Part shown: piece by piece, positions 23,082 to 45,203 of the stretch | Numbering within the stretch: position 1 is the first letter of the stretch | How the letters are laid out: every line of letters begins with the position of its first letter | From: Spirochaetales bacterium | GTDB taxonomy: Bacteria; Spirochaetota; Spirochaetia; SZUA-6; JAFGRV01 | DNA length: 64,000 bases | Direction: 5' to 3' | NCBI GenBank assembly: GCA_016937215.1 | Contig: JAFGWI010000292.1 | Span: 1 to 64,000, forward strand | Position numbers and translations under genes: made by a program | The notes under the pieces: model-generated | Database searches by the model: none | Told to the model about the DNA's origin: nothing | What the model saw: the letters and a program-made list of their open reading frames with translations, nothing else

Positions 23082-24815
23082 TCATCGCGACCATACCCGG
23101 GGATTGGGCAATTCCTTTAATATTTTGGAATTGAATTCAGGTAGTTCCGCGGCTGATTGCAAACCAATAAAAAAGCTGGCTTCTTCGGATTTTTTGTCCC
23201 AATCGGAAATGGAGCTGTTAAGATAGGTTCCGAAAATATTGGCTTGAAATAGATATTTTTCGTCCTGTTCCTTAACACGGAATTCCATGGAGCCTATAGT
23301 GGGGTCAATTTGGGACGGGAAGCCTATTATGATATTCTGCTGACGGTAGTTGAAGCAAAAATAATTGCCAGCCAGTAGGTATTGGCTTTGCTTGGCTCTA
23401 ACGGTTTCACGGTAATCAAAGCTGTCGCTATAGGCTGTTACCACCAATTCATCTCCAGCCTCCATTTCAAAGAGGGTGAGCTCGTAGGGCGCTATACTTT
23501 GAAGATTGCCTTTTTTATTAAACTCAGGATAATCGATGTGGACAGCGCACAATAAAAAGGGAAACTCGTCAATGAAAAAATAGTCTGTTATCATTTTCAT
23601 GGGGCTTGCCCAATCTTTATGGCTCATGAGTTGTATATCCCTTAGCCCGTGGAGGGTTTCGTCCATAACGGAAAAGGTGGAAATGTTTTCTGCTTCCTGA
23701 ATCGCGTTTTTATATTGGATATAACTTCTTCCTGGCCGTGAACATAAAAAAGTCTTACCATTTGCTTCCATGTCAGTAATCTGGCCGCCTTGGAAAATCA
23801 CCGTAAACATGCTGCCAGCCATTCTGGCTTCACCGGGCATGGAGGCGTCGTTGAAGCGAGTGGCCGGTGGAAACAGTTCTTTAGGCGGATGAGTGGAGAG
23901 CTTTCTGTTGCCAAGGGGAGAAAGCTCGATCAGGACATCGTGAATTTTATTCTGGTCCAGAAAGTCCTTTCGTTTTTTATGGAGGTTTTGTAAAAGCCCC
24001 CTGTTGCTCGCTGTATGGCTGTACAAAGTTCTTTCATGGCATTTATCCTGAAACACTATATCATGAAGTTCTGTTTTTTTGTTTTCATCCTGAAGGGATT
24101 TGAACTGGATTCTATATTTGTGGTTCAGTTTTTGCAAAAAACTGGCCAGGTTCTGATTCTGTTCCGATTCTGAAGAGATTATATCGGAAGCTTGTAAGTC
24201 GAGAAAAAGAATAAAATCCCGAAGACCTTTACCAATACCTTTTTTTAGATTTCTGTTCACTTCGATGGGTAAATCTGGAAAAATAGAATCGTAAATAAAA
24301 TAATCAAAATCGAAGAGGGTTTCGAATTGTTTCAGGTTGTGGTTGAAATAATGGAAATTTTCGGCTGGAATCGCGATTTTATTGAATCCTTGCTGAATAT
24401 AATGCTCGATACTTTCTTTTCTGTACAAATCTGCCAGTTTGGGCAATAGAATTTCCGGCTTGTAATCAAAAACATCCTTTATTCCTGATTTCCAGGAGTT
24501 TTCGATATTCCAGGCCAGTTCAAATTTGCATTCATTGGTGCTTAATGGGGGGTGCATGTTGTGACCGTAGCCCATGGCCATAATAACATCACCTGAGGTT
24601 TTTATTCTTTGCTCAATAATGGTGATCACGTCCTGAAGTTTCTCGGGTGATTTTTCCAGTAGAGGGAAACTGGGAATAGCCCAGTGCAGAGGGATTCGGT
24701 CCAGATCAAGGGATTTTTCAATGGCAGCCAAAAAGCTGAGGCTTTTTGTTTGAATGTAATCCGGATCCGCGTTGTTCCAGATAATACCCAGGTATAAATT
24801 TAATTCTATGGCCAT
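23082..24815 (-). CDS. Hypothetical protein, 577 aa, possibly carbohydrate-active
   Basis: Long uninterrupted ORF with tail-to-tail spacing to neighbours; no motif recognised with confidence. Confidence 0.6.
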   Translation of the reverse strand: MAIELNLYLGIIWNNADPDYIQTKSLSFLAAIEKSLDLDRIPLHWAIPSFPLLEKSPEKLQDVITIIEQRIKTSGDVIMAMGYGHNMHPPLSTNECKFELAWNIENSWKSGIKDVFDYKPEILLPKLADLYRKESIEHYIQQGFNKIAIPAENFHYFNHNLKQFETLFDFDYFIYDSIFPDLPIEVNRNLKKGIGKGLRDFILFLDLQASDIISSESEQNQNLASFLQKLNHKYRIQFKSLQDENKKTELHDIVFQDKCHERTLYSHTASNRGLLQNLHKKRKDFLDQNKIHDVLIELSPLGNRKLSTHPPKELFPPATRFNDASMPGEARMAGSMFTVIFQGGQITDMEANGKTFLCSRPGRSYIQYKNAIQEAENISTFSVMDETLHGLRDIQLMSHKDWASPMKMITDYFFIDEFPFLLCAVHIDYPEFNKKGNLQSIAPYELTLFEMEAGDELVVTAYSDSFDYRETVRAKQSQYLLAGNYFCFNYRQQNIIIGFPSQIDPTIGSMEFRVKEQDEKYLFQANIFGTYLNSSISDWDKKSEEASFFIGLQSAAELPEFNSKILKELPNPRVWSR

Positions 24816-27885: not shown

Positions 27886-28275
27886 GGGCTCTGTTGTTGG
27901 CTACTTGTGGTTTGGCTTTTGAAGTGAATTGGAATAGCGTGTTATTAGAGTTTCACCGATGTATTCGAAGTCATATGGAAGAAAGTAGAAATACTTTTTC
28001 CGAAGTAACCAGCTGGATTTTTTCACTCGATTTTTATGCCTGGTTGAGTTGGTTCAACATTGTTTTGAGCATTGCGTGATAATTAAACCCGATTGTGTCG
28101 GGACGAGTTATTCAAGCAAGTGTAAAGCCGCTTTGGTGTGATTTGTGGTGAAGATATTTGACTTCTTTCATCTTCATTGGAATCTTATTTAAAGAAAAGA
28201 TAACACGCTACTCATTATTTATTAATGGATACAGGGCAAGATAAATCCGATGATATGTTTTTCAGGAGGGTATCT

Positions 28276-29118
28276 ATGCAATATAGAAAATTATTTTTTT
28301 ATGTCATCTTTGTTTTTATGTTTACAGCTTTGTGGGCTAATGGAGCATCTGAAAGAAGCCCTGAGGCCACACTCACACTTGATGATATTCGCTTGTATGT
28401 GGATACGCAAAACAGTCTTGTGCGTATGCAACGTCAGGAAAATTGTGATTGGGACCAAGTACGGGCTCTTTTTAAAAAGGTCGAACCCTTTGTTGCAATC
28501 ATTGATGAATATGGCGGTTCTAAATATTTGGAGGAAATTCCCGAAGCCATTGAAAAATGCGCGGCTGGCGAAAATATGGTAGTAAATAGTCAAATTACAG
28601 GAAAGGGATTTAACCATATTACTTTTTTAGCCATAGAACGGGAATTGGATCGAATGTATAGAAGTGAAAATATGGCGGAAAATGCCAAAGGAATAGCTGC
28701 ATTGGCTGAAGGGATTCGTGCTCCTTTTCAGCGCAGGGACCGGAATTTTTTTCCGGAAACAAAGGAAATGGAAAAGGGTTTTGATGAATGTTTAAAATCC
28801 TTGGCAGATTCAAATAAATCGAATTTTCCTGTTATCAGGAGAAAATTCGAGGATCATATGTTCCGGAATTTCGCTTTATGTGTTTATTATGAAATCCATG
28901 AAACCCAGGTTAATCGAGATGAAAATCAGGAATTGGCGGAACGTCATTTAATGGAAGGTGTGGTTTATTACAGGATAATCGCTGACAGGGTTAAAAAGAA
29001 CAATCATAAATCTCATGTTTTTTTAAGTAATATGCTAAACAGTACCATTTATAAGGCCGATGAAACAAGTTTTATGGATTATTTAAAGCAAGGGATGGGT
29101 GATATTCCTTTAATTTAA
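28276..29118 (+). CDS. Secreted protein of unknown function
   Basis: ATG 28276 preceded by AGGAGGG; signal peptide MQYRKLFFYVIFVFMFTALWANG. Confidence 0.6.
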   Translation: MQYRKLFFYVIFVFMFTALWANGASERSPEATLTLDDIRLYVDTQNSLVRMQRQENCDWDQVRALFKKVEPFVAIIDEYGGSKYLEEIPEAIEKCAAGENMVVNSQITGKGFNHITFLAIERELDRMYRSENMAENAKGIAALAEGIRAPFQRRDRNFFPETKEMEKGFDECLKSLADSNKSNFPVIRRKFEDHMFRNFALCVYYEIHETQVNRDENQELAERHLMEGVVYYRIIADRVKKNNHKSHVFLSNMLNSTIYKADETSFMDYLKQGMGDIPLI

Positions 29119-29517: not shown

Positions 29518-31608
29518 ATGTTGAATCAGAAAACAAAAGCGAACGGCTCTTTTATAAACAGAATGATAGTGGTTCTTGGGCTGATGCTGCTCTGGAACCT
29601 TGCTGCCTGTAACACTGAAACAACTGAATTAAATAATTGGCCTGAATTGCTTTGGGTTACAGGTTCTGAGGCGCTTGTAGCATGGGTGAGCGATACAGAA
29701 TATCGGGGTGAAATTTTTTTTCGTTCGGCCCAGGATGAACAAGAGCAGAAGGCTGAAGAAGAAAATATTCCTTCTCGTTTTCACGAGATTATGTTGAAGG
29801 GTCTTTCATCGAATACATCTTATTTTTACCGCCTGAAAAATGAAGAAACCAGTTTTATGTTTCAAACACAACCGGATTGGGCGGAATCCTTTTCTTTTCT
29901 TATTGCTTCAAATATTCATGGGGATGATATCATGAATATGATTATGTCAGAAATGAGCCACTTTGTTATTTCTCTTGATTCTTTGTCCCGGGAAAAATCA
30001 ATGGCGCCTGTAAGAGCCTTTGTTCCTGTTTTAACTGCCTCAGGACAATCTTCACCCTTTCAGGAAACGCTTCAAGGCAGTGATCACTACCAAAAGATAA
30101 ATAACTGGTTCTATGATTGGGGTGGACTTCGATTGATTTTCATTAATAAGCCTGATGAGAGAATCGGAGATTTGCTTAAGGCTTCTCAGGCTCATACAAT
30201 AGGTGTTGTTATTAACTCTCAGGTTTTAGGTAATAAAGAGGAAGTTGCTTCCCTTTTGACTGGTGATTGTTATCATCTTCCCTTTTATGAAGAATTGACA
30301 ATCTTTAATCAGGATCATCCTTCCCAAAAGGCCAGTTTTGTTTTGATTTCTGGTGTTGATCGTCAGTTCTTGAATTGTAATGATATTGTTTATCTTTCAT
30401 TAGGTGATGAAGGCTTGAAGTCAGCTTTACGAGTTGATATTGATGTTGAATACGCCTCTGCTTATTTTCTTTATGATGACGAGGAAGTGAGTTTAAAGGA
30501 GCTTCCTATGAATCGAAAACTGACCTGTGAAGAGTGTAGACATTTGGCTGATAAAGGAGCCTATGAAAAAAGCATTAACGCCTATCAGGATTTTATCGCT
30601 CAGAACCAAGGGCATTTCCAGATAGATGATGCCTATTATGCGATCGCCGATATTTACGATGAAAAACTTTTTCAACTAGAAGATGCCCTAAATTGGTATC
30701 AAAGGCTTTTAAAGGAATATCCGGCTAGTCATTTAGCCTCATTGGCGACACAGCGAATTTATTATCTGGAAACTTATAAAAATGATTTTGTTCCTTTGTC
30801 CCGTTTTGACCGTATCAGGAAAATCGAAATGGCCAAAACCAAGGGAGAAGAAAAGAATGTCTGTGAGAATCTTCGTGCTGTTGAAGAAATTATTCGCGAG
30901 TATCATGATAGTCCTTTGGCGCCGGTGATGAAATACTGGGTGGCCAAACAGTATAAATTATTTGACGCTGATCAGGCGATTCTTGTTTTTAAAGAGCTGG
31001 AGGAAAATTATCCCGGGGCCCTGGAGGCCCAAGAAATTGCTTTGGATATTGGCGATACCCTTTATGAGGCAGGTCGCTATTATCAAGCCAAAGAGGCTTA
31101 TGTGGCTGCATTGGATGCTCTTCCTGATCTTGAGGCAACAATAAAGGCCCAATTACTGCGTTCGGAACGAAATATTAATCGGAGAAATTTGGCAATAGCT
31201 GCCTGGTTTCTTGTAATCCTAACTATGGGTGTTTCCATATTTTCGCGGCCATTAGGATTTGATGGTAAATCGTTAATTTTCGCCTTACTTTTTTTTATTA
31301 TTTTTGGGATTATTGTTTTTTTCGCTGCCTGGCTGATTTGGGAACAATTTACCAGTGAAAGTGAAATGATTTTGTTGGTCATTTTCTTTTCTTTCGCCGC
31401 TGCTGCCGGAGTTTTATTTTCTAAAAACATTTATCATAAATATGTTCTCGGTATTATCGCAAAGAATAGCTCAAATTCTCTTGTGTCAGGAAATAACTTG
31501 ATCATGGGCTTATTGGTTGTTGTTAAAGGCCTGGTTCTTTTTCTGAGTGCCTGGTATTTGAGCATTTTCCATATCAATGAACATCTGCTTGTGGCATTTG
31601 GATTTTGA
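29518..31608 (+). CDS. Lipoprotein: Fn3/PAP-N-like + degenerate metallophosphoesterase-like region + TPR + C-terminal TM helices
   Basis: Lipobox-like WNLAAC; LLWVTGSEALVAWVSDTEYRG...LSSNTSYFYRL; TPR-like QFQLEDALNWYQRLLKEYPASHLA region; hydrophobic C-terminus. Confidence 0.65.
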   Translation: MLNQKTKANGSFINRMIVVLGLMLLWNLAACNTETTELNNWPELLWVTGSEALVAWVSDTEYRGEIFFRSAQDEQEQKAEEENIPSRFHEIMLKGLSSNTSYFYRLKNEETSFMFQTQPDWAESFSFLIASNIHGDDIMNMIMSEMSHFVISLDSLSREKSMAPVRAFVPVLTASGQSSPFQETLQGSDHYQKINNWFYDWGGLRLIFINKPDERIGDLLKASQAHTIGVVINSQVLGNKEEVASLLTGDCYHLPFYEELTIFNQDHPSQKASFVLISGVDRQFLNCNDIVYLSLGDEGLKSALRVDIDVEYASAYFLYDDEEVSLKELPMNRKLTCEECRHLADKGAYEKSINAYQDFIAQNQGHFQIDDAYYAIADIYDEKLFQLEDALNWYQRLLKEYPASHLASLATQRIYYLETYKNDFVPLSRFDRIRKIEMAKTKGEEKNVCENLRAVEEIIREYHDSPLAPVMKYWVAKQYKLFDADQAILVFKELEENYPGALEAQEIALDIGDTLYEAGRYYQAKEAYVAALDALPDLEATIKAQLLRSERNINRRNLAIAAWFLVILTMGVSIFSRPLGFDGKSLIFALLFFIIFGIIVFFAAWLIWEQFTSESEMILLVIFFSFAAAAGVLFSKNIYHKYVLGIIAKNSSNSLVSGNNLIMGLLVVVKGLVLFLSAWYLSIFHINEHLLVAFGF

Positions 31609-31651
31609 TTGCTTGGGATATTCTGTAAATTGACACTAAATGAGGTTAATA

Positions 31652-31858
31652 ATGAAAAAAGAAAAAAAGCAACCCTGTATATTGGCAATTAAAAAAGGCT
31701 ATAACCCTAATTCCAGTTCTGTGGGCAGCGACCTTCCGGCTTTTTTGTTTTTTGTTTTAGCAGCAGGCGGTGTTGGTGTTTTTGTCGCGAATCTGATTTC
31801 ATATTTTCAAATATTGTTTAGTCAAAAAAAAGTTCATGAAGAAATCCAAAAGAAATGA
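31652..31858 (+). CDS. Small membrane peptide with KKGYNPNSSSVGS motif (candidate modified-peptide precursor)
   Basis: MKKEKKQPCILAIKKGYNPNSSSVGSDLPAFLFFVLAAGGVGVFVANLISYF...; ATGA overlap with the next gene. Confidence 0.7.
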   Translation: MKKEKKQPCILAIKKGYNPNSSSVGSDLPAFLFFVLAAGGVGVFVANLISYFQILFSQKKVHEEIQKK

Positions 31859-32367
31859 TAAAAAAAACAGGACTTATTACACTCTTAGTTTTTTGGCTAT
31901 TACTTATAATTTCGGGCTGTGAAAAAATCAAACTTGCAAGAGATGCTCAAAGCTTTGATTTTCGTCTTGAAGGGCTTGATCATCAGCGTTTTTATTTGAA
32001 TAAGCAAAAGGGCAAGACCGTTGTTTTAGTGTTCTGGGCAAGTTGGTGTCACAGTTGCAAAGAGTTGCTGGTACATTTGGGTGAGTATCTTGAAAATCAT
32101 CGTCGCGAGGATTTTCTTTATATTGGCGCGGTCTGTATTGATCCGGAGAATAAAGATCTTGTCCTGAATATTCAAAAGAATTTTAACTTGACCCTCCCTA
32201 TTCTTCTTGATTCTGAAGCCAAGCTTCATACACAGTTAGGTTTGAATAGTGTTCCGATAACCTTGATTTTTAATTCAAAGGGAGAACTTTCTTCAAAGGA
32301 AGAGGGCTTCACTGAGTTGATATGGACGCGAATTAAAAAGACTATCAGCAGATTAACTTCTGGATAA
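31855..32367 (+). CDS. TlpA/ResA-like thioredoxin lipoprotein
   Basis: Lipobox IISGC; VVLVFWASWCHSCKELL; GLNSVPITLIFNSKGE (cis-Pro). Confidence 0.88.
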   Translation: MIKKTGLITLLVFWLLLIISGCEKIKLARDAQSFDFRLEGLDHQRFYLNKQKGKTVVLVFWASWCHSCKELLVHLGEYLENHRREDFLYIGAVCIDPENKDLVLNIQKNFNLTLPILLDSEAKLHTQLGLNSVPITLIFNSKGELSSKEEGFTELIWTRIKKTISRLTSG

Positions 32368-32370
32368 GGA

Positions 32371-34677
32371 ATGATAATGGCTTCTTTTAAACAAATTAAA
32401 AAAATCCTGTTTACTTTGATAATGGTTGCGGGTTATCAGGGCTTCGCGGAAGAAACAGGATTTTTGATAAACCCCTATTTACTGGATATCACTGAAACCT
32501 CGGTTGTTGTTGCTTTTCATTTAGCTGAACCCATGGAAGCCCGCGTAAAAGTCTGGGATAACGCAGAGGAAAAGCTATTCTTTTCGGAAAAGGGGGTGTC
32601 ACATTTTGTTACCATTACAGGATTGAAACCGGGGCGTTCTTATCATTATCAAGTTGTTTGTGGTGACGCTTTGATTCAAACAGGGGCAGAGGATTCTTCT
32701 TATCAGATTAAAACTGCCTGTTTACCTGGAGAATCCTTTAGCTTTGTTGTTTTCGGAGATCCCCGGCCTGGTGATACCATGACTTCTCTTAATCATCGAC
32801 GAATTATCGAACAAATTGCACTTTACGAACCCAATTTTCTTCTTGTGCTGGGTGATATGGTAGATGATGGTTCTGTTGTACAAGAATGGGTAAATTTTTT
32901 TCAGGTGGAAAATCAGCTTCTCAGGTCATCGGCCATTTTTCCTGTTCTGGGTGATAATGATTATGTTTTAGGAAAGGGCCATTACGCCCGGTTTTTCCCA
33001 AAACTGCAGAAAGGCTATTACAGCTTTCAATGGGGCGGAATTCAATTTTACGGATTGAATGCTTGGGGCACCCGGGCTGGTCAGGAAATCAGCGAGTTTA
33101 ATCAGGACAGTCCCCAGGTAGAATGGTTGGTGTCGCAGCTTCAAACAGAGGTGGCGATTAATGCTCCTTTCCGGGTGGTCTTTTTACATGATCCGGTTTA
33201 TATATCCCGAGGACGCTCTTCTGATCTTTTGCGTGAAACACTGGTACCTGTATTTAAACGATATCGGGTGGACCTTGTTTTTGCTTCATGGCATCTTTAT
33301 GAGCGTTCCCAGAGTAACAATACAAGTTATATCATTTCAGGTGGTGCTGGAGCAGAACTCATCTGGATGAATCCCAATCCCTCCTATCCTTCACAAGCCG
33401 AGGCCAGGGAATATCATTTTTGCCGCGTTAATGTTAATGCCAATGCCCTTACTATTCGGAGCATATCCACCGATGGAACAGTATTGGACACTTTTTCCCT
33501 TTCTCCCCGTTCCCAGGATAAACAACAGGAGAAAAGTGTTCTCGATAATGCCAAACGTCTGAAAAAGGATTTGGTTTTTAATGCCGGACAGGAGGAGCTT
33601 CCATTAATTCTTTTCTCCTATGACTGCCAGTTTTGTAAGCTGTTACTCAAGGAAGTGTTGCCTCGCAAGGCTCTGGAGGAAGGCATTACCTTGAGGGTTT
33701 CCTATTTTGATTTAGCTAAAGAGGGAAGTTACGATCTGTTTTTGAATGCTGGAATGGAATTCGGGCGGCAGGATTCCGATGTACCGGCTATTTTTATCGG
33801 CGTATCGGTTTATGGAGGTGAGGAAGAGGTTCTGCGCGGACTGGAAAACGAAATCATGGATTTTAAAATTTCTCCGGATATGTATTACGCAAAGAGTGTC
33901 TCAGCCTTTGGTGAAGTTCATAATACTGATATGCTGGGGGAAGAGGCTTTTTCAGGCCTGACACTGGGGCTTGTTTTTGGAGCGGGGTTTCTCGACGGGA
34001 TTAACCCTTGCGCCTTTACAACAATGATTTTTTTGATCTCTTATTTGAGTGTTGTAGGCGCTACCCGAAACCGGATGCTTTTAACTGGCGGTATTTTTAC
34101 TTTGTCGGTTTTCCTGACCTACTTTGTTATAGGATTGAGTTATTTTGGCATTGCTCGCCTTATCATGGAAAATAATGGTGTCACCTTAGTGATTAATGGG
34201 ATATTACTGATTTTTGTCCTGGTTTTGGCTGTGCTATCATTAATGGATTATTTTAAATGCCGACAGGGGAAAATCAAGGAAATGGTTTTGAAATTACCTG
34301 GAAAACTAAGCGAAAAAATCAAAACACATATCAGGAGATTCGCTCGCCATTCAGTGGCCTTAGCTGGTGCCACCTTTTTACTGGGGATTGTTATTTCAGG
34401 CATGGAATTGACATGCACGGGTCAGGTATATATTCCCATTGTAACTATGATTTCCGAACCTCAACATCGGGCTATGGCTGTATTTTATCTTTTGCTTTAC
34501 AATTTGGCCTTTATTATTCCTCTTATTGTGATATTTTTGCTGGCGACTTTTGGAGTTACATCCAGAAATCTGGAAATCTTTTTCAAAAAACATGTGGCAA
34601 GTGTTAAGTTGGCTTTTTCTGCTTTGTTCGCGGTCATGGCATTAGTGATAGTCTGGAACATAAGGTTGTTGTTATGA
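32371..34677 (+). CDS. Purple-acid-phosphatase-like metallophosphoesterase + thioredoxin fold (CQFC) + CcdA-like membrane fusion
   Basis: FVVFGDPRPGD...VLGDMVDDG...VLGDNDY...VVFLHDPVY...FASWHLYERS; LFSYDCQFCKLL; FLDGINPCAFTTMIFLI...ELTCTGQVYIPIV. Confidence 0.85.
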   Translation: MIMASFKQIKKILFTLIMVAGYQGFAEETGFLINPYLLDITETSVVVAFHLAEPMEARVKVWDNAEEKLFFSEKGVSHFVTITGLKPGRSYHYQVVCGDALIQTGAEDSSYQIKTACLPGESFSFVVFGDPRPGDTMTSLNHRRIIEQIALYEPNFLLVLGDMVDDGSVVQEWVNFFQVENQLLRSSAIFPVLGDNDYVLGKGHYARFFPKLQKGYYSFQWGGIQFYGLNAWGTRAGQEISEFNQDSPQVEWLVSQLQTEVAINAPFRVVFLHDPVYISRGRSSDLLRETLVPVFKRYRVDLVFASWHLYERSQSNNTSYIISGGAGAELIWMNPNPSYPSQAEAREYHFCRVNVNANALTIRSISTDGTVLDTFSLSPRSQDKQQEKSVLDNAKRLKKDLVFNAGQEELPLILFSYDCQFCKLLLKEVLPRKALEEGITLRVSYFDLAKEGSYDLFLNAGMEFGRQDSDVPAIFIGVSVYGGEEEVLRGLENEIMDFKISPDMYYAKSVSAFGEVHNTDMLGEEAFSGLTLGLVFGAGFLDGINPCAFTTMIFLISYLSVVGATRNRMLLTGGIFTLSVFLTYFVIGLSYFGIARLIMENNGVTLVINGILLIFVLVLAVLSLMDYFKCRQGKIKEMVLKLPGKLSEKIKTHIRRFARHSVALAGATFLLGIVISGMELTCTGQVYIPIVTMISEPQHRAMAVFYLLLYNLAFIIPLIVIFLLATFGVTSRNLEIFFKKHVASVKLAFSALFAVMALVIVWNIRLLL

Positions 34678-35039
34678 AAATTAAAAATCGAATTTTTATC
34701 CGTCCGACATTGAAGACACTTTTGATCACTCAGGTACCAGTAAAAAAAATATCATCTTCCCTGACTGATCAATTTGAGCTGGACACATTAGTACTCACAA
34801 ATCGTAGGAATAAACAGTCTCCAATGATCCTCCGAGTAAAAAAAGGTTATAATCCGAATTCCAGTTCCATGGGCTCCTTTGTTTTTTCTTTGCCTGGATT
34901 GCTTTTTGTGTTCACATTGGGCTTTGGCTTGGTACTTGGTCTGGTGATGTCCTTTTTTAAAAATCCCCTTTTAGCTGATAACAAGAAGCAGAACTCTGCC
35001 GGGCTTTTGTCACCGAGTAATAAGCAGGAAAAATTATGA
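34674..35039 (+). CDS. Small membrane peptide 2 with KKGYNPNSSSMGS motif
   Basis: MILRVKKGYNPNSSSMGSFVFSLPGLLFVFTLGFGLVLGLVMSFF; 4-bp overlaps with both neighbouring genes; alternative start ATG 34824. Confidence 0.7.
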   Translation: MKIKNRIFIRPTLKTLLITQVPVKKISSSLTDQFELDTLVLTNRRNKQSPMILRVKKGYNPNSSSMGSFVFSLPGLLFVFTLGFGLVLGLVMSFFKNPLLADNKKQNSAGLLSPSNKQEKL

Positions 35040-36337
35040 AACAGATTTTTTTTATTATTTTGTTTTTTCTGGTTTACGGGTTAAGCGCTGATTCTTCGGA
35101 TGAGATTCACAGAGCTGTGTCTCTTCTTGAAAATAGTTTTTTTTCTCAGGGAATCGATAAATTGCAAAGTGTTCTTTCAGATGAAGCCACTGATGATAAT
35201 TCCAAAGCCCGCGCCCTCTATGAGTTGGGTCGTTTTTACGAAGATCAGGCGGGGGATTTTGACTCGGCTTGTAATTTTTATCGCCGTGCTTCACTCATGG
35301 AAAATTTGCCTAAGGAGCAGCCTATAAATGAAAAGGCTGTTTGGGCCTTAAAAAAGATTGAAGCTTGGGAGAATCAATTCACGTCGCAAATAAGGAGTCT
35401 GGATAAAGCCAGAGCCGATAGTTCATCAGAATTGAACCGGGAATTATATAACCAAAATATCAGTAAGCTGAAAAAAATTATAATCGCTTCACCCGACTTT
35501 CATCGTACCGCGGAAGTTTATTATTATATCGGTATTTTTCAAAGTCGCTTAGAAAGCTATGGAGAGGCTATTAAGTCATTTTCAAAAGCTTTGTCTATCC
35601 GGCCTGGTGTGAATTTGTTTTTGGACGTGGATTGGCAAATTCAAACCGCTGAAACCAATCGAACTCGATTTGTTATTCGATGGGTTTCATGGGGGATGGC
35701 TTTGGTCCTATCTTTTCTGGGGATATTCTTGTTTTTCATCGCCAGGCCCTGGGTCTGGTGGAAACCCGTGGAAATGATAAAGCCTTTGGCAGCCATTCTT
35801 GTCTGGTCTGTATTTTTTTATGGCACGGCATTTATGCTTAGTCAATGGGTACCAGACCGTCCTTCCGAGGACTTGGTCATGAAATTGGCACCCACCTTTA
35901 TTTTTTCAAATCCTGGCAGCCCGGGATCGGAGATTTATCATATCTATTATTTTTATGGAATAATCGGGATAGTGCTTCTCTATCTTTTTTCTTTGTTCCT
36001 GGGGCAACTTAAATTTCCCTTGCTACGAAGCCTGTCCCTGGTTTTTTCCGGAGTACTGATTTTCGCATCGCTATCCGGATTATTTTATATCAAATATTGT
36101 GATAAAAAAAGTTCTTTATATCCCCAGACAAACGCGTTAACAGGATATTTTACTGGTTACATGCGTTTTTATCAGCAGGATCCCGAGCCTCTGATACTCA
36201 CCCGGCCGCGTGAGTACACTAATCTCTCGGTGATTTATGTTGATGATTCGGTTTTTGCCCAATGGATTGTTGAACATTGTCCCTATGATCAACCAGGGGA
36301 TGAAGTTAATATAGAAAATGGTCCTTTTCAGGAATGA
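35036..36337 (+). CDS. TPR-containing membrane protein
   Basis: Signal peptide; TPR-like repeats (ARALYELGRFYEDQAGDFDSACNFYRRA; AEVYYYIGIFQSRLESYGEAIKSFSKALSI) then several TM helices. Confidence 0.7.
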   Translation: MKQIFFIILFFLVYGLSADSSDEIHRAVSLLENSFFSQGIDKLQSVLSDEATDDNSKARALYELGRFYEDQAGDFDSACNFYRRASLMENLPKEQPINEKAVWALKKIEAWENQFTSQIRSLDKARADSSSELNRELYNQNISKLKKIIIASPDFHRTAEVYYYIGIFQSRLESYGEAIKSFSKALSIRPGVNLFLDVDWQIQTAETNRTRFVIRWVSWGMALVLSFLGIFLFFIARPWVWWKPVEMIKPLAAILVWSVFFYGTAFMLSQWVPDRPSEDLVMKLAPTFIFSNPGSPGSEIYHIYYFYGIIGIVLLYLFSLFLGQLKFPLLRSLSLVFSGVLIFASLSGLFYIKYCDKKSSLYPQTNALTGYFTGYMRFYQQDPEPLILTRPREYTNLSVIYVDDSVFAQWIVEHCPYDQPGDEVNIENGPFQE

Positions 36338-36968
36338 GAAGGACGATAAATTGGAGATGGGTTTTATGGTTTTTTGGTTAAAAAGAATCACTGCCGGAAA
36401 TATGTTTACATTTATCGGCTTTGGTTTTTACCTTTTTTTAATTGCAAATTTGCTTTTTTACTTTATTCCATCACCTCAACCCGGAGTTCCTGAGATGAGT
36501 TACAATGAAAACCGTGCTTTAGGTAATTTAAAGTCCATACATCAGGCCCAGGAAGTATTTCGCGAAACTGACCGAGACCAGAATGGTAAAAATGCCTATG
36601 CTTCTTTCTATATTCATCTTTGGCAAGCTGTTGACGATACTGGTGAAGTGGTACCGGTAAATCTTATTTCCAGGAATCTGGCTTTTGCTATGGGGCCTTC
36701 ACGGGAGATTAATGGATATTATTTTAAAGACATTCATTTCCGCTTTGATGACCAAGGCCGCGAGGTTCTTCTGGACCCTGAAAAAGAATGGGCTCTCACT
36801 GCTGTGCCTGTTCAAATGGGATTGACCGGCCGTTTTATTTTTCTTATTGATCAAAAGGGCGGTGTTTATGTGAAAATGGCTTATGAGGCTCCGGATATAT
36901 TTCCTTACGACCCGATAAGCTCGGGGTGGGTTCTTGTAAAAGACAAAATAGATATGGATGCTTTATGA
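36318..36968 (+). CDS. Membrane-anchored pseudopilin-like / DUF2950-like protein
   Basis: N-terminal TM; NENRALGNLKSIHQAQEVFRETDRDQNGKNAYASF; alternative start ATG 36357. Confidence 0.55.
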   Translation: MVLFRNEKDDKLEMGFMVFWLKRITAGNMFTFIGFGFYLFLIANLLFYFIPSPQPGVPEMSYNENRALGNLKSIHQAQEVFRETDRDQNGKNAYASFYIHLWQAVDDTGEVVPVNLISRNLAFAMGPSREINGYYFKDIHFRFDDQGREVLLDPEKEWALTAVPVQMGLTGRFIFLIDQKGGVYVKMAYEAPDIFPYDPISSGWVLVKDKIDMDAL

Positions 36969-37002: not shown

Positions 37003-37830
37003 TTAGTCCACAGAAAATCCGTGTTTTTCCCAAATTACCTGATTTTCCGTTTTTTGTAAAAATCGGAAAAACTCATGTGCCGCCTCAGGGGATTGAGAGT
37101 ATTTCAAAATTGATACCATCAGCCTGATTTCTCCAAGATCACTCTGGCCAAAGCTAGCTGTGGTGATGACATCCACGCCTTTTTGAGGGCTTTGATTTTT
37201 TGGCAGGTCGATGATTTTTAGTTTATCACCAAATGAAAACGCGACTGGCCGCCAGATCAAGGCAGCCTGGATTCCGCCTTTCAGGATTTCTCTGGCTGCT
37301 ATCAAGTCGTTCTTTGTTACTAACACAATGTTTGGCTGAACCTTGTCAAGAAGGCCCGCTTTTTTCAAGGTATATGCCCACAAATATCCGGAGGTCGAAT
37401 AGAGAAAATCACAGGCCCCAATGCTAACTTCTGGAATGGCGAGATCCACTAATTCCTTGATATTTTGTGGATTTTTTTTATCAACAACTATGGCTATCGA
37501 GGCCTTTGCTACAACAGCTTGTCTGTGGTTTTTGTCCTCCAATATATAATTATAGGGGTCCAAAAGAAGAGCTAAATCTCCGTTACCCTGGCTGATTAAC
37601 TGACTAGTTAAAGCAGCGCTTTTTTCATATTCAATGAAGAGTTTATACTTGTAAGTTTGAGCAAAGCTTCTGGATAGTTCTTCACAAGCCTGACGGGTTG
37701 TTTGATCAGCATAAATAAATAAAGCCCTGTTCCCATTATCTTGCTTTTTATAACAGCGATAGGTCGATAATGAAGTAACACAAATAAACATAATCATTAG
37801 CAATCCAGGAGTTTTTGAATTGTATTTCAT
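37003..37830 (-). CDS. ABC substrate-binding protein, ModA/SBP_bac_11-like
   Basis: FIYADQTTRQACEELSRSFAQTYKYKLFIEYEKSAALTSQLISQGNGDLALLLDPYNY; paralogous to 39664-40524 and 48867-49688. Confidence 0.75.
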   Translation of the reverse strand: MKYNSKTPGLLMIMFICVTSLSTYRCYKKQDNGNRALFIYADQTTRQACEELSRSFAQTYKYKLFIEYEKSAALTSQLISQGNGDLALLLDPYNYILEDKNHRQAVVAKASIAIVVDKKNPQNIKELVDLAIPEVSIGACDFLYSTSGYLWAYTLKKAGLLDKVQPNIVLVTKNDLIAAREILKGGIQAALIWRPVAFSFGDKLKIIDLPKNQSPQKGVDVITTASFGQSDLGEIRLMVSILKYSQSPEAAHEFFRFLQKTENQVIWEKHGFSVD

Positions 37831-38377: not shown

Positions 38378-39538
38378 ATGAAATTCCGATATGAAAATTT
38401 CGGGGGAATTATTGCCAGCAACGCGCCCCCTTTTTTAGCTTTTGTGAATCGTGAATACGCGCGAAACCAGGGATACGAAGAATCACCTCTTTGGCAAGGA
38501 AATGATGATATCGATATATTGACCGCGCCTACCGAGGTCCATCTTGCTATAACCAGCACTTGTACCGGCGATTGTCCTCATTGTTATATGGATTCCGGCG
38601 CCAGGGATCCTGATGAGCTGGATACAATAGGTTTAAAAAAGGCTCTCACGGCTCTTGCCAATATGGGAGTGTTTCATGTGGCCCTGGGTGGAGGTGAAGC
38701 TCTGCTCCGGGATGATCTCTTTGAGGTGGCAGCTCATGCAAGGAAGATAGGACTGGTGCCCAATCTCACTGTTTCGGGTTTGAATCTTTCGGAAAAGAAT
38801 GTTCATAAAATGAAAGTTTTTGGTCAGGTTAATGTCTCGGTGGATGGAGTGGGGGACGCTCATGCTGTTTTTCGCGGCCCACATAAATTCCTGCAAGCTG
38901 ACAGTGCCCTTGACCTGCTGATAAAGGCTGGTGTACCTACAGGTATAAATTGTGTTGTTGGGCGTTCCAATTATGGCGGGTTAAAGGATCTTTTTGCCTA
39001 TGCGCAAAAAAAGGGCGTCAATGAACTTGAGTTTCTGCGGGTTAAACCTTCGGGACGCGGTCTTGATTTATATTATAAAGAACGCCTTGATTTTAAGCAA
39101 TCCATCAAACTGCTGCCTCTTTTATCGAATTATTCCAGAAAATTTAAAGTACCTGCTAAAATCGATTGCTCCTTTGTTCCTATGTTGCTTTGGCATCGAC
39201 CGTCGAAAAAATTACTTTTGGCTAATGCGACCTATGGCTGTGAGGCAGGTAATGTATTAATAGGCGCTAAAAGCTCAGGGCGTGTTAGCGGTTGTTCCTT
39301 TCTTCCTGCTCTGGATTTAACCATTGATCAGTTAGCTGATCAATGGGAGGAATATCCTGCTTTTCAGGAGCTCCGCCATTGGCCCGAACAGGCTGCTGAG
39401 CCCTGTCGCAGTTGTGGTTATCTGAAAATTTGTAAAGGAGGTTGTCACGCGGTAGCGGAGAAAATTACCGGTAGTCTTTGGGACCCTGATCCGGACTGTC
39501 CGCGTGTGATTTTATATAGACAATTTAACAGGGCTTAA
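38378..39538 (+). CDS. Radical SAM/SPASM-domain peptide-maturase-like protein
   Basis: STCTGDCPHCYMDS (CxxxCxxC); GGGEALLRDDL; C-terminal SPASM-type Cys cluster YGCEAGN...GCSFLP...CRSCGYLKICKGGCHAV...CP. Confidence 0.92.
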   Translation: MKFRYENFGGIIASNAPPFLAFVNREYARNQGYEESPLWQGNDDIDILTAPTEVHLAITSTCTGDCPHCYMDSGARDPDELDTIGLKKALTALANMGVFHVALGGGEALLRDDLFEVAAHARKIGLVPNLTVSGLNLSEKNVHKMKVFGQVNVSVDGVGDAHAVFRGPHKFLQADSALDLLIKAGVPTGINCVVGRSNYGGLKDLFAYAQKKGVNELEFLRVKPSGRGLDLYYKERLDFKQSIKLLPLLSNYSRKFKVPAKIDCSFVPMLLWHRPSKKLLLANATYGCEAGNVLIGAKSSGRVSGCSFLPALDLTIDQLADQWEEYPAFQELRHWPEQAAEPCRSCGYLKICKGGCHAVAEKITGSLWDPDPDCPRVILYRQFNRA

Positions 39539-39663: not shown

Positions 39664-40524
39664 ATGATGATCCAGTATATCCTTGTTTGGCTTAAGTCTG
39701 TAAAGACCTGTTTGTTACTTCTTATGCTTCTAGTTTGCTTTTCATGCATTGATAATCAGGATTCAATGACCCGAAAAAAACCTCTTCTTCTCTATGTGGG
39801 AGGGACTATGCGGCCGGTGATGGAAGAGATCGTTAACCGTTATTCTCTGGAAACCGGTCAGCTCTTTGAGTTGGATTACGCGGGAAGCGGTGAGCTTCTT
39901 ATCCGCATGTAGCAGACAGAAAGGGGCGACTTATGTATTGCCCATGATCCTTTTGAAGCCGCTGTCCGTCGTCGGGGAATGGCTAATGAAACCTGGACTC
40001 TGGCAACAATGGAACCTGTGATTGTGGTACAGCCTGGAAATCCACATGATATTCAGGGCCTTGAGGCTTTGATTAATCCGGAAATTAATCTTCTTCTCAC
40101 CGACCGCACCTACTCCACCACAGGCCATCTGGTGACCAGGATGTATGAGAAATTGGGGCTTCTGGATGAACTGGAAGAAAATATCACTGCCCGGCTTCGC
40201 TGTCCCTGTACAGCGGCTAACGCTCTTACTCTTGAAACCGCCGACGCGGCGATTGTCTGGAATGTCGTCGCTGGTTTACGAAAAGACAAACTGGATATTA
40301 TTGAAATTGCGCCGGATCATCGACTTAAGCAAGGCGTGGATGTTGTTACAAGTGCTACTTTTGGCCAAGTGGATATGAGTGTGACCAAGGTTTCTGTGGC
40401 ATTGCTAAAATACTCTCAAAACCCTGATGCCGCCAGGGCCTTTGCTGTATACGCCTCTTCTTCTCGTTGTGCCCCTATCTGGAAGGAATTTGGTTTTCTT
40501 TCCCCTTCAAGTGAAAAGTGGTAA
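39664..40524 (+). pseudogene. ModA-like substrate-binding protein interrupted by in-frame TAG (39910-39912)
   Basis: Reading frame continues after the stop: ...AGSGELLIRM*QTERGDLCIAHDPFEAAVRRRGMANETWTL...; both halves align with the paralog at 48867. Confidence 0.75.
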
Positions 40525-40545: not shown

Positions 40546-41685
40546 TCATTCTTTTTTGCGTTTATTATTAAAAATGATCAACACAGTGATTCCCCCTGTT
40601 ATCAGGACCAGGCTGATGATCGTGATGATCATTACCATATTCAAGGAAGCCTTGTCCTCTGTGTCTAATTGAATGGTTTTTACCAGCTGGAAGTTTTCAC
40701 TTAGTTTTATATCGTCTTTTACGTCTCCGAAAAGCTCCTGTTGTTTGAATTCTATCATGGAAGAAAGGCCAACCAGGGGAATATCTTCATCTATCCACGC
40801 TTCGCCGTAGGCTTCCCAATCAGCGCTTATAAGCAAGTCCATGCCGGGATTATCGCTTTTTAGTTCACAAGCGCAGATTCCTGTTAGGTAACCTGTTGCT
40901 TCCTCCAGTGAGGATTCAGCTATACCGGCTCCAGCCAGGGCATAGAGTATTCTTCCCCGACCAAAAACAGGAAAGAGAATTGGATAATTGGAAAACTTTT
41001 TTAAACCTGGTTCACTGTGCATAAGAATTGAAATAAAAATTTCTTCTTCCGGGGTTCGTGGTATGGATATTAACGAAAAACGTGTTCGTCGAGTTTTTGC
41101 TTTGCTAATGGCTGAAAATTCGAAGGTGAGTTTGCGGTTAATGATTTCCGTAAATTGGGCTACTTTTCGGGAAACCATTTTTTCTGTTTGTTGGTCTTCG
41201 TCGGTATTACCGCTTTGTATGAGCAGCCATATAACTCCGTCGCCTGACAAGATTCTTTTGCTGATTTCATTTCGGCTAGGTGAGTGAATGATCTTACGGG
41301 CATTCTTCATGCTGGGTTTCCCTTGCCAGAGAGCAGCCATAAATGCCATTGATTGGGGATAATAGAGGGCAAGGCAGGGATAATCGGCGGTTTTAAGCTG
41401 TTCCAGGCATTCTTTCTTTTCATGATTCATTTCTTTGGTTACATTAACTGTTTCAAAATGATAATTTCCTGTGGTGCTGTATTCAATGGAGGATTCTTCC
41501 AGCCAGGCAGCGCATTTATTTGTTTCTTGATCCAGGGCTTTATTGTGAAAGAGATAAACCCGGTAAAGGCTGGGCAACCAACGTTCAAGTGCATAACGAA
41601 AAACCGGTGCATCGCAGCTCCAAAGTCTTCCTACTGGGAGTGACAAAATAAATATTAATATATAAAGAATTTTTCTTTTTTGCAT
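40546..41685 (-). CDS. Secreted, C-terminally membrane-anchored protein (CDAPVFRYALERW N-terminus), function unknown
   Basis: Signal peptide then SCDAPVFRYALERWLPSLYRVYLFH; C-terminal TM helix before KKRKKE. Confidence 0.65.
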   Translation of the reverse strand: MQKRKILYILIFILSLPVGRLWSCDAPVFRYALERWLPSLYRVYLFHNKALDQETNKCAAWLEESSIEYSTTGNYHFETVNVTKEMNHEKKECLEQLKTADYPCLALYYPQSMAFMAALWQGKPSMKNARKIIHSPSRNEISKRILSGDGVIWLLIQSGNTDEDQQTEKMVSRKVAQFTEIINRKLTFEFSAISKAKTRRTRFSLISIPRTPEEEIFISILMHSEPGLKKFSNYPILFPVFGRGRILYALAGAGIAESSLEEATGYLTGICACELKSDNPGMDLLISADWEAYGEAWIDEDIPLVGLSSMIEFKQQELFGDVKDDIKLSENFQLVKTIQLDTEDKASLNMVMIITIISLVLITGGITVLIIFNNKRKKE

Positions 41686-41846: not shown

Positions 41847-44800
41847 TTATTTATTCATCACGCTGACCCATTTTTTTTCGTTTGGCGATAAATCGGATTT
41901 AGGCGCGAAAGCAATGGATGGGAGCATTAGATATGAACAGTCGCATCGGGCCTGTCCTTCAGGAACCAAAACAAGGCCATTGGCAACCGGAGTGTGTATC
42001 CAGCAGGCTGGACGGAATCCACCCCAGTTTTCCACACCCGATTCCCAATCATCCAGGTTGAAATAACCAAATACTCCGGAGCGCATGGTTAGCATATGTT
42101 TGCCGGAAGAGAGAATTCCGCAATTATAGGTTCGTGCAAATGGCCGGTAGATGTCCTTTCCGGTTTTTAATTCGAGTGACCAGGGTTCAAAAAAGATCTC
42201 ATCTTCGATAATCAAAGGCCTGGAGGAATAAACATAGGTGTTGAATCCTTCCTTGTTGGTGGAGGTATAGGGAAAAATGTAAGAAGGATCGGTAATCCCA
42301 TCGGGAATATCATCCAATCCATACATATCCCAGCTGGTTTTTATACCAGCCCCTATTTCAATGTTCCGTTCCCAGATGGTTTTTCCATTGGATGCGTTGT
42401 AGGCGATAATTTTGCCTCCGACTTCGGAATTCAATTTAAAACGGGTATACTGCTGGGTTCCGATGAGGATATTGTGAGGAATGCTTACTGCAGTGAGCGT
42501 AGTGAAGGTGTCAGGAGTACTCCATACCTTATTTCCGGTTTTTGCGTCAAGGCAAAGCAGTTCACCTTTTTGAAGCCCACTTTCATTACTGGGAAAGCGT
42601 AATCTGTCCTGGGAGGCAATTGGCCGGTCAACAAAATATACCTTGTTATCGCCTATTGAAAAAGTGTTATGGCGAATGGAGTTTTTGGCTTCATATATCC
42701 ATTTAACATCGCTTGTTTCGGGATCCATGGCAAAAACAGCCCGGGATTCCGAGTATTGATGACTCATATCTGATTCGCGATAACCGCCGGAAACAATATG
42801 ATCCACATCAGTTATGGTTCCGTAAAGAGTCCCGTCTTTGGCGTACACCAAGCCCCAGTAATTGAGATCTCCCCAGCTGGACTTTCCAGGATCAGAAAGT
42901 TTGGGTGAAGTAAGGATTTTAATTTGATTTCCTGTATATATATCCACCACATGAACTTCCCGGAACGCCTTGTAATACTGCTGCTGCCCTACGCGGATAT
43001 ACATTTTGTCACCATCTATCGCATAATTGGCGCCTGTGATAGCCGCGCCCAGAAGATTGTCCTGATCGTAATGCTTAGCCAAGTCTTCAATATAATAATC
43101 CCAAATGGTATGACCGTTATAGGCATCGTAAGCGCGAATACCATCAATTCCTTGCATAAACAGCATTCCGTCTTTTACAAGAGGAGCAACTCCCCGGCCG
43201 TGTCGCGAAGGAACATCAAAATCAGGATCATCCCACCATAGCATCCCCAATTCGCCTTTAACTCGTTCGTCAAGAGAACAAATTGTATTTGCAGGATCCG
43301 AATACATATGGGTCCATTGGCCGGCGCCCTCCAGTTCTCCTCGGGTTTTCATGGTCATGGATCCAGGTTTTCCAGTGATCAGAATACCGCCATAGGGTCG
43401 TTGAACATGAGGCATGCTGGAGGTGAGGGGATTCTCTCCGGTTTTTACCGAAGATCCTGAAATAATCAAATTGGCAAAATAGCTGGGATAACGGTCTAGT
43501 GTAGTTTCGCTTAATTGAACCTGTACCCGGTTTCCATATAGTCCGGCTTGGTTTAGTTTCTTTCTCGCCAGGGCCACATTGGCCGGATTGGAATCTGTCG
43601 CGATAATATGGAGATTGCTGATTTTAGCCAATTCGTATGCTAAAGCCCCATCACCGCAGTTGACATCAAGGCAGTAACCGTGGCCAATACCTGATTTTTC
43701 AAGAATTTCCTTGGCCGCTTTTTTATAAAGTTCGTTATTTCCATAAGGAGCAGGATTTATTTTTTTACCTTGAATCAGTGCTTTTTTATTTACTGAAAGA
43801 GAATCAAAGCAATAGATTTTACCTTCATCGGTAGACACAAACAGTTTACCCTGAGCAACACATAAACCATAGGGAATGCCTTCTACTTCGGCTGCCCAAA
43901 GGATTTCCTTGTTATCTGAGTCATAGATTGTGATGTGTCCATTGGCTGTGCCGACTATCACTTTACGATCAGCGATAATGATATCAATGCTGTGGGCTTT
44001 TTCCATGGTTTGAATAGTCCATTTGGGGTCATTTAAATAATTATTGATAATCTCTTCACCTTTGGAATTTTTTTCTGTTTTGGAAAAAGTGATATTGTGA
44101 ACATCATAGGCCTTGAGTTTCAGGTCTGTAGGATCCACCGAATAAAGATAGTGAGAGTTGAAGGCCAATCCTGGTGAATTAAACTGGTTAGGTGAGGCGG
44201 CTAATGTGTTAAAGTCGTCGGAGGTAAGACTATGACCGTCGTTTTCGTTAAAAATTCCATTCCGAAGACCTATGATTTCTTCATAATCCCGAGTGTTTCC
44301 CGAGGTCACGAAAAGATATTTGTCAGTGGCAGAGAGCCGTGAGCCTCCGAAATTTCGGTATTGCTGAAAATGAAAATATTCAAGTTCTCCGCTATTAATA
44401 TCATAGGCAGCAGGAACAGCTCGTCCTGTTGGAACGAGAACATGATTATCAGTAACAACAAGATAACCCTGGGCTGAAACTCCGCTGTATCCTTCGGCAC
44501 GATCGTGAGGTTGAAGGGTCCAGGCGTGGCCGGTATCTTCATTTTTCCAGATTTCATTTCCTGTTTCCGGATCCAGAGCAATTATGCTTACTCCTTGTGT
44601 CGGCCAGATCCCGACTCCATAATAGATGATTCCGTTTTTTAGAGCGATACCCCCTCGGGATGGCCAGCTGGATACCATGCTTTTGTTACCAAGTTTGTAA
44701 ATATCAGCATAATGTTCTTTTTTCCATAGAAGTTCCCCTTTGGCAGCAGAAAGACAATAGAGTTTACCGTCATCACTGACCGCGAAAAGCATGTCATTAT

Positions 44801-45203
44801 ACAGAACCGGTGACATTCGAACGGGCGAATCCGTGAAAAAACTCCATACCTCTTCACCACTGTGTATATTCACACTATGAATTTGATTGTCAGTGGAGCT
44901 ACCGTAAAACATTAAATTATCCTTAACGACCACTTGGTTTGCATAATCAAATGTCATTCGGGTATGTACCCCTGTCCAGGCTGGAGATGGTTTTCCGGTG
45001 TCTAGTATCCATCTCAAACCCAAATTGTCAGGGAGCGTGTTGTTTGTGTAACCGCTTCTGTTTGAATCAGAACGATACTGGATCCAGTTGTCATTTTGTA
45101 ATTCCGCGGGAACATTCTCGTTTCCGCCGCCGGCAAACATTGATCCGGTGAAAAATGAGAATAATGATATCAGAAAGTAAAGTCTGATCATTTTCTTTTT
45201 CAT
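41847..45203 (-). CDS. PQQ-type beta-propeller repeat protein with embedded SAM-methyltransferase-like domain
   Basis: Repeated (I/V)xALDPETGNEIWKN / CLDAKTGNKVWSTP / AYNASNGKTIWERN; central GYCLDVNCGDGALAYELAKISNLHIIATDSNPANVALARKKL. Confidence 0.85.
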   Translation of the reverse strand: MKKKMIRLYFLISLFSFFTGSMFAGGGNENVPAELQNDNWIQYRSDSNRSGYTNNTLPDNLGLRWILDTGKPSPAWTGVHTRMTFDYANQVVVKDNLMFYGSSTDNQIHSVNIHSGEEVWSFFTDSPVRMSPVLYNDMLFAVSDDGKLYCLSAAKGELLWKKEHYADIYKLGNKSMVSSWPSRGGIALKNGIIYYGVGIWPTQGVSIIALDPETGNEIWKNEDTGHAWTLQPHDRAEGYSGVSAQGYLVVTDNHVLVPTGRAVPAAYDINSGELEYFHFQQYRNFGGSRLSATDKYLFVTSGNTRDYEEIIGLRNGIFNENDGHSLTSDDFNTLAASPNQFNSPGLAFNSHYLYSVDPTDLKLKAYDVHNITFSKTEKNSKGEEIINNYLNDPKWTIQTMEKAHSIDIIIADRKVIVGTANGHITIYDSDNKEILWAAEVEGIPYGLCVAQGKLFVSTDEGKIYCFDSLSVNKKALIQGKKINPAPYGNNELYKKAAKEILEKSGIGHGYCLDVNCGDGALAYELAKISNLHIIATDSNPANVALARKKLNQAGLYGNRVQVQLSETTLDRYPSYFANLIISGSSVKTGENPLTSSMPHVQRPYGGILITGKPGSMTMKTRGELEGAGQWTHMYSDPANTICSLDERVKGELGMLWWDDPDFDVPSRHGRGVAPLVKDGMLFMQGIDGIRAYDAYNGHTIWDYYIEDLAKHYDQDNLLGAAITGANYAIDGDKMYIRVGQQQYYKAFREVHVVDIYTGNQIKILTSPKLSDPGKSSWGDLNYWGLVYAKDGTLYGTITDVDHIVSGGYRESDMSHQYSESRAVFAMDPETSDVKWIYEAKNSIRHNTFSIGDNKVYFVDRPIASQDRLRFPSNESGLQKGELLCLDAKTGNKVWSTPDTFTTLTAVSIPHNILIGTQQYTRFKLNSEVGGKIIAYNASNGKTIWERNIEIGAGIKTSWDMYGLDDIPDGITDPSYIFPYTSTNKEGFNTYVYSSRPLIIEDEIFFEPWSLELKTGKDIYRPFARTYNCGILSSGKHMLTMRSGVFGYFNLDDWESGVENWGGFRPACWIHTPVANGLVLVPEGQARCDCSYLMLPSIAFAPKSDLSPNEKKWVSVMNK

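Follow-up and report, generated by a model that had tools for sequence, protein, structure and literature searches.

The known radical S-adenosylmethionine (SAM) peptide systems produce secreted antibiotics or free cofactors, which are cut from a leader. Here, a stretch of 64,000 nucleotides from a Spirochaetales bacterium (contig JAFGWI010000292.1, in the following called the window; genome of 5.1 Mb in 335 contigs) was analysed, which encodes two small membrane peptides, designated A and B, and a radical SAM/SPASM enzyme at position 38378 (Table 1). Judging from sequence comparison and structure models, both peptides are probably dedicated substrates of this enzyme, and their N-[S/C]-S block would be modified in a peptide that stays in the membrane. 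The resemblance to the SPASM peptide maturases SuiB, SkfB, PqqE and MftC comprises the combined radical SAM and SPASM architecture, the nearest structures and the presence of a dedicated short peptide partner. Unlike in those systems, the proposed substrate is leaderless and anchored by a transmembrane (TM) helix, and the tyrosine used by MftC and PqqE is not conserved.

Three further systems are close. The anaerobic sulfatase-maturating enzyme (anSME), a SPASM enzyme, converts either serine or cysteine to formylglycine (PMC5682303). It shares the SPASM fold with the window enzyme, and its action on Ser or Cys matches the occurrence of both residues at position 5 of the peptide block; however, the proposed substrate here is a short membrane peptide and not a sulfatase, and the sulfatase sequence motif is absent. 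In radical SAM systems for ribosomally synthesised and post-translationally modified peptides (RiPPs) that bear a RiPP recognition element (RRE), the counterparts are an N-terminal beta-beta-beta-alpha extension of the enzyme and a strand-like segment ahead of the block in the peptide, although in the model of the window enzyme the strands are followed by a single clear helix. The PEP-CTERM, LPXTG and MYXO-CTERM sorting signals have the same order of motif, TM helix and basic tail, but neither a cargo protein nor a sorting protease is found here, and the block lies at the very N-terminus.

An 18-residue block common to both peptides had been claimed in the original prediction, and it is indeed present: CILAIKKGYNPNSSSVGS in peptide A and MILRVKKGYNPNSSSMGS in peptide B are identical in 14 of 18 residues and differ in C/M, A/R, I/V and V/M. 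As also claimed, the codons of the two blocks differ, which places the conservation at the protein level. A DNA repeat or a recent duplication as the origin of the pair was rejected on these grounds and because both peptide types recur across phyla. Each block is directly followed by one hydrophobic (TM) segment, and the ATGA overlaps described around the peptide genes are real: they connect peptide A with the TlpA-like gene (31855), the metallophosphoesterase gene with peptide B (34674), and peptide B with the gene of a tetratricopeptide repeat (TPR) protein (35036). Since most relatives start about 8–14 residues ahead of the core, the inner ATG at 34824 may be the true start of peptide B, and the reading with 121 amino acids is uncertain.

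An exact scan of 85,462 genomes was performed with a degenerate DNA pattern for KxGYNPN(S/T/C..)3xG, in which the three Ser positions were open to S, T, C, R or W. It yielded 77 stretches, and 76 of them hold a small open reading frame (ORF) with the block and a TM helix, usually followed by a charged tail; the block is therefore not a product of chance, and a single stretch (L030) is a chance match. Apart from L030, every pattern match has Ser at all three open positions, and one second copy beside a pattern match (L039) has Leu at the first of them. The family occurs in more than 10 bacterial phyla, with members in Planctomycetota, Thermodesulfobacteriota, Myxococcota, Fibrobacterota, Elusimicrobiota, Spirochaetota, Aminicenantes, Kiritimatiellota, Bacteroidota, Bacillota, Delongbacteria and Raymondbacteria; it is widespread and apparently undescribed. 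Comparison of 42 members with Pfam, NCBIfam (June 2026) and the PDB gave only scattered single or double weak matches, the strings GYNPNSSS, YNPNSS and NPNSSS had no match in the open literature, and broader term searches returned no description of such a system. A phage origin of the peptides was rejected, because the strict pattern is absent from 2.9 million viral contigs.

The family consensus is [IV]-L-x-V-[KR]-x-G-x-x-P-N-[S/C]-S-S-x-G, followed by one TM helix, and in most members the block starts about 8–15 residues from the N-terminus. Among 110 peptides, Gly0, Ser6 and Gly9 are invariant, Asn4 is present in 109, Ser7 in 107 and Pro3 in 103 (Ala in 7), and position 5 is occupied by Ser (92) or Cys (18) and by no other residue; these counts are lower bounds on the variation, as some of the residues were fixed by the search patterns. 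Outside the search pattern, Gly-8 (91%) and Leu-5 (93%) are conserved. Tyr1 occurs in 83 of the 110 peptides and is replaced by H, R, L, F, P, V or M in 27; the members without tyrosine came from a pattern in which this position was left open and from searches that started from the enzyme. Tyrosine chemistry of the MftC/PqqE or splicease type was consequently rejected as the general reaction. The suggestion of tyrosine-directed chemistry as one option is thus not supported; the constant part of the block is G-x-x-P-N-[S/C]-S-S-x-G. The accompanying remark that the splicease site XYG is missing was borne out: in the block, Tyr is followed by Asn and is itself variable, so that the peptides do not fall among the spliceotides.

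The distribution of the family follows that of one unnamed radical SAM/SPASM clade. When the neighbourhood of each peptide copy (a stretch of at most 8 kb) was inspected, a radical SAM gene of the same family was found in the stretch of 49 of 84 copies, in 47 on the same strand, and families of TPR proteins with four TM segments (TPR/4-TM) in 64 of 84. The enzyme was also searched in the whole genomes of 19 motif-bearing bacteria from other phyla, mostly those with no enzyme in the stretch, and 18 of them have a copy (272–520 bits; unrelated SPASM enzymes ≤105 bits). Of 141 genomes of Geobacterales, four have the enzyme (269–581 bits; next best 186), and the motif is present in precisely these four and in no other (hypergeometric p about 6e-8). 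The enzyme is present in five of 218 genomes of Planctomycetota (≥467 bits; next 181), and the true motif in four of these five and nowhere else (p about 5e-8); six other pattern matches, whose triplet contains codons for Cys, Thr or Trp, were judged to be due to chance. Among 394 genomes of Spirochaetota, only that of the window has an enzyme at the threshold. In this set, the true motif was found in a single other genome (G257), where it lies at the end of a contig and next to a SPASM enzyme of which the C-terminal 95 residues are present. Several loci encode two peptides and a single enzyme, as is expected of a maturase.

Two genomes have two enzyme copies each, namely G444 (contigs C54 and C37) and G588 (contigs C441 and C313), and G588 also has two different peptides, GYNPNSSS and GVNPNSSS. 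In six loci of Myxococcota and relatives (L028, L029, L052, L062, L081 and L084), peptide genes of the KWGYNPNSSSLGVDVTFLLFG type have neither an enzyme gene nor a TPR gene nearby; the enzyme is encoded elsewhere in these genomes, with the exception of G429, the genome of L029.

In Myxococcota, peptide and enzyme are in part one polypeptide. Among 30 enzyme loci of this phylum, the motif with its TM helix is fused in frame to the N-terminus of the enzyme in 13 and encoded by a neighbouring small ORF in 12; three have the motif elsewhere in the genome and none was found for two, so that 28 of 30 have a motif. An example is the fusion in L171, MKILAVRRGRAPNCSSAGMLVGAAIASAVVGAAVINAFADRF...RVRKEDFGGIIASEDPPALLF. 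The fusion clade has Cys at the position of the first Ser, where all others have Ser. A first impression that many enzymes of Myxococcota (210–406 bits) lack a peptide was wrong, since the Cys version is present and often fused. In a FastTree phylogeny, the motif-associated enzymes form one group (79 rows, 77 with motif found; support 100) apart from motif-free SPASM relatives, and the Cys group is nested inside it; given the speed-oriented method and the length of some outgroup branches, little weight should be placed on the inner branching. The original prediction had linked the peptides to the radical SAM/SPASM gene. Whether homologues occur mainly without this gene was checked across genomes, and the link survived; it is strongly supported by shared phylogenetic profiles, adjacency, in-frame fusions and the single motif-associated enzyme clade.

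The window enzyme possesses the SPASM signature, with CxxxCxxC followed by CX9-15GX4C...CX2CX5CX3C...C and a TIGR04085 score of 42.4 bits (cut-off 27). The radical SAM and SPASM cysteines are invariant in 30 aligned members, and the seven-Cys SPASM pattern is kept in 74 of 79 members of the clade. The best named sequence family for the window enzyme is MftC (140 bits); with 113–161 bits for TIGR03962 against a curated cut-off of 265, and 112–140 bits for GeoRSP (TIGR04303) against 400, the enzymes belong to neither. The AlphaFold model (mean predicted local distance difference test score, pLDDT, of 93.9) was matched best by Foldseek with SuiB in complex with its precursor peptide, SkfB, PqqE and peptide-bound anSME, all of which act on peptides or proteins, and the enzyme is thus predicted to fold like peptide-modifying SPASM enzymes. 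In the model, the radical SAM domain is preceded by three strands and one helix, which are formed by the N-terminal 30 residues. This is suggestive of a reduced peptide-binding element, which would not be a full RRE as strictly defined (PMC12710340).

With respect to its kind, the system would be an unusual variant of a radical SAM peptide-modification system: leaderless and retained in the membrane, with one enzyme for a pair of paralogous peptides and with natural fusions of substrate and enzyme. As in RiPP systems, adjacency, profiles and fusions show a short gene for a ribosomal precursor that has its own radical SAM/SPASM partner. No recurrent protease or exporter for the removal of a leader or follower was seen among the neighbours of the family loci. 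The latter counts against the classical label of a RiPP precursor, but not against working like one.

A plausible course of events would begin in the cytosol, where the enzyme might bind the N-terminal strand [IV]-L-x-V-[KR] of the peptide and oxidise or cross-link a residue in N-[S/C]-S before membrane insertion; the Ser/Cys and the invariant Ser that follows are the most likely targets. Formylglycine is one candidate chemistry, offered as a hypothesis because anSME accepts either Ser or Cys, in analogy to the S/C alternation at position 5. The single TM helix would then insert the peptide with the N-terminus outside and the C-terminus inside, so that the modified block faces the periplasm. 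This topology is suggested by the fusions, in which the enzyme is C-terminal to the helix; with a cytosolic enzyme, the block would be outside if the helix spans the membrane. Neither cleavage of a leader nor secretion would follow, and the peptide would remain as a permanently anchored modified group, each one held by its own TPR/4-TM partner. In extended clusters, it might work together with the purple-acid-phosphatase-like metallophosphoesterase and a TlpA/CcdA thiol relay. Only tentatively can this be seen as a new class of ribosomal peptide modification, the product of which would be neither secreted nor excised but a permanently membrane-embedded group (e.g. formylglycine or a cross-link at N-[Ser/Cys]-Ser) on the periplasmic face, used with TPR proteins, metallophosphoesterase and thiol relay in more than 10 phyla, in some lineages with substrate and enzyme in one polypeptide.

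Several points weigh against a role of the peptides as enzyme substrates. The basis is genomic or predicted throughout. The proposed topology derives from the fusions, and the K/R bias of peptides that stand alone does not settle it, with a higher net charge on the N side in 46 and on the C side in 27. In many Myxococcota, the peptide gene is not linked to that of the enzyme; no enzyme is detectable in the motif-bearing genome G429 (a metagenome-assembled genome of 2.7 Mb), and no motif is detectable in the enzyme-bearing genomes G613, G753 and G939. Moreover, no canonical leader, protease or exporter is conserved among the family loci.

The peptide could instead anchor the enzyme in the membrane or serve as its docking subunit, and the enzyme would then modify another periplasmic or membrane protein, such as the TPR protein or the phosphoesterase, or a small molecule. 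The enzyme fusions would fit an anchor too, and several other proteins recur at the loci. However, a TM helix would suffice for this purpose, and the invariant block G-x-x-P-N-[S/C]-S-S-x-G on the far side of the helix would not be needed; two peptides per enzyme in several clusters, the unlinked peptides of Myxococcota and the lack of any other partner as constant as the peptide likewise make an anchor unlikely. In view of the TPR/4-TM families, which accompany more peptide copies than the enzyme does (64 against 49 of 84), the peptide might also remain unmodified and be a small subunit of a TPR/4-TM membrane complex, with the radical SAM gene carried along for a related but separate task. 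The in-frame fusions, the matching profiles in three groups and the one motif-associated clade are hard to explain if the enzyme does not act directly on the peptide, and such a subunit is highly improbable.

Still less credence is given to a stand-alone tag akin to the PEP-CTERM or LPXTG tails, which would be processed by a membrane protease after a merely preparatory radical SAM step. The order of motif, helix and basic tail resembles that of C-terminal sorting signals, and one peptide each has a weak match to the LPXTG anchor (E 0.003) and to GVDTG-CTERM. These matches are confined to single members and far from significance, the supposed tags have no cargo domain, and no gene of the sortase or exosortase type was seen among the recurring neighbours. 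A dedicated substrate thus appears as the most probable role of the peptides. The family combines near-invariant residues in distant phyla, a peptide seemingly built to stay in the membrane and natural substrate-enzyme fusions; with a defined enzyme, a target of 16 residues and Geomesophilobacter sediminis as an isolate strain, it makes the chemistry accessible to experiment, and it gives a name to many conserved small ORFs missed by annotation libraries.

Table 1. Positions of the peptide genes, their blocks and the accompanying genes in the window.
Feature	Position	Strand	Remarks
Unnamed exported/lipoprotein-like gene	28225..29118	+	31% identity over 228 aa (E 1e-40) to L036:3179-4000
TPR/4-TM membrane protein no. 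1, putative partner of peptide A	29518..31608	+	Lipoprotein-like signal; purple-acid-phosphatase-like N-terminal domain
Peptide A	31652..31858	+	68 aa (alternative start upstream at 31640, 72 aa); block, one TM helix, basic tail
Block of peptide A, CILAIKKGYNPNSSSVGS	31676..31729	+	13-codon core 31691-31729
TlpA/ResA-like thioredoxin lipoprotein (CHSC)	31855..32367	+	Pfam AhpC-TSA 49 bits; NCBIfam ResA/StoA below cut-off; CxxC
Purple-acid-phosphatase-like metallophosphoesterase with CQFC (CxxC) segment and CcdA/DsbD-like membrane domain	32371..34677	+	PF00149 37.7 bits; 7 TM peaks
Peptide B	34674..35039	+	121 aa from 34674, or 71 aa from inner ATG 34824; block, TM helix
Block of peptide B, MILRVKKGYNPNSSSMGS	34824..34877	+	Core 34839-34877
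TPR/4-TM membrane protein no. 2, putative partner of peptide B	35036..36337	+	TPR matches, TM peaks
DUF2950-like exported protein	36318..36968	+	PF11453 22.1 bits (cut-off 20.2); often adjoins the radical SAM gene in relatives
Radical SAM/SPASM enzyme, proposed maturase	38378..39538	+	CxxxCxxC, 7-Cys SPASM, N-terminal beta-beta-beta-alpha extension

The gene order of the window is also found in locus L017 of G003, a genome of the same family, with TPR/4-TM lipoprotein, peptide A, TlpA-like protein, metallophosphoesterase-CcdA, peptide B, TPR/4-TM protein, radical SAM enzyme and DUF2950. In L017, the radical SAM gene lies directly 3' of the TPR gene, whereas in the window it is outside the transcription unit of the peptides and separated from it by a solute-binding-protein gene on the opposite strand (37003-37830). 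TPR/4-TM protein no. 1 matches PF16656 and TPR models below or near the cut-off and has four TM peaks near the C-terminus. Its C-terminal half is homologous to the family of TPR/4-TM protein no. 2 (hhalign 99.2%), and each peptide therefore has its own TPR/4-TM protein beside it. The metallophosphoesterase family is present in 35 of the 77 related stretches, in 7 of 19 loci of the Myxococcota group and in one Geobacterales isolate. Homologues of the unnamed exported gene adjoin peptide A in relatives, and its family occurs in 14 related stretches.

A further peptide group (GTNLxPLLFGG; L041, L059, L079 and L087) adjoins a gene with an apolipoprotein N-acyltransferase-like sequence (cluster 10). 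This neighbour, the resemblance of which was judged by eye, may hint at a lipid-linked step.

Two sizeable proteins of the window (23082-24815 and 40546-41685, both on the minus strand) have no Pfam match at E 0.001. Downstream of the enzyme gene, a solute-binding-protein gene is split into the ORFs 39664-39912 and 39979-40524 on the plus strand (SBP_bac_11, 88.8 bits for the second part), which suggests either a disrupted gene or a fault in the assembly; a related gene that looks intact is the one at 37003-37830 on the other strand. An odd domain insertion was observed in a protein of 1118 amino acids (41847-45203, minus strand), in which PQQ/BamB-type beta-propeller repeats (PF13360, 121 bits) flank a methyltransferase-like domain (PF13649, 26.8 bits, just under the cut-off of 27).

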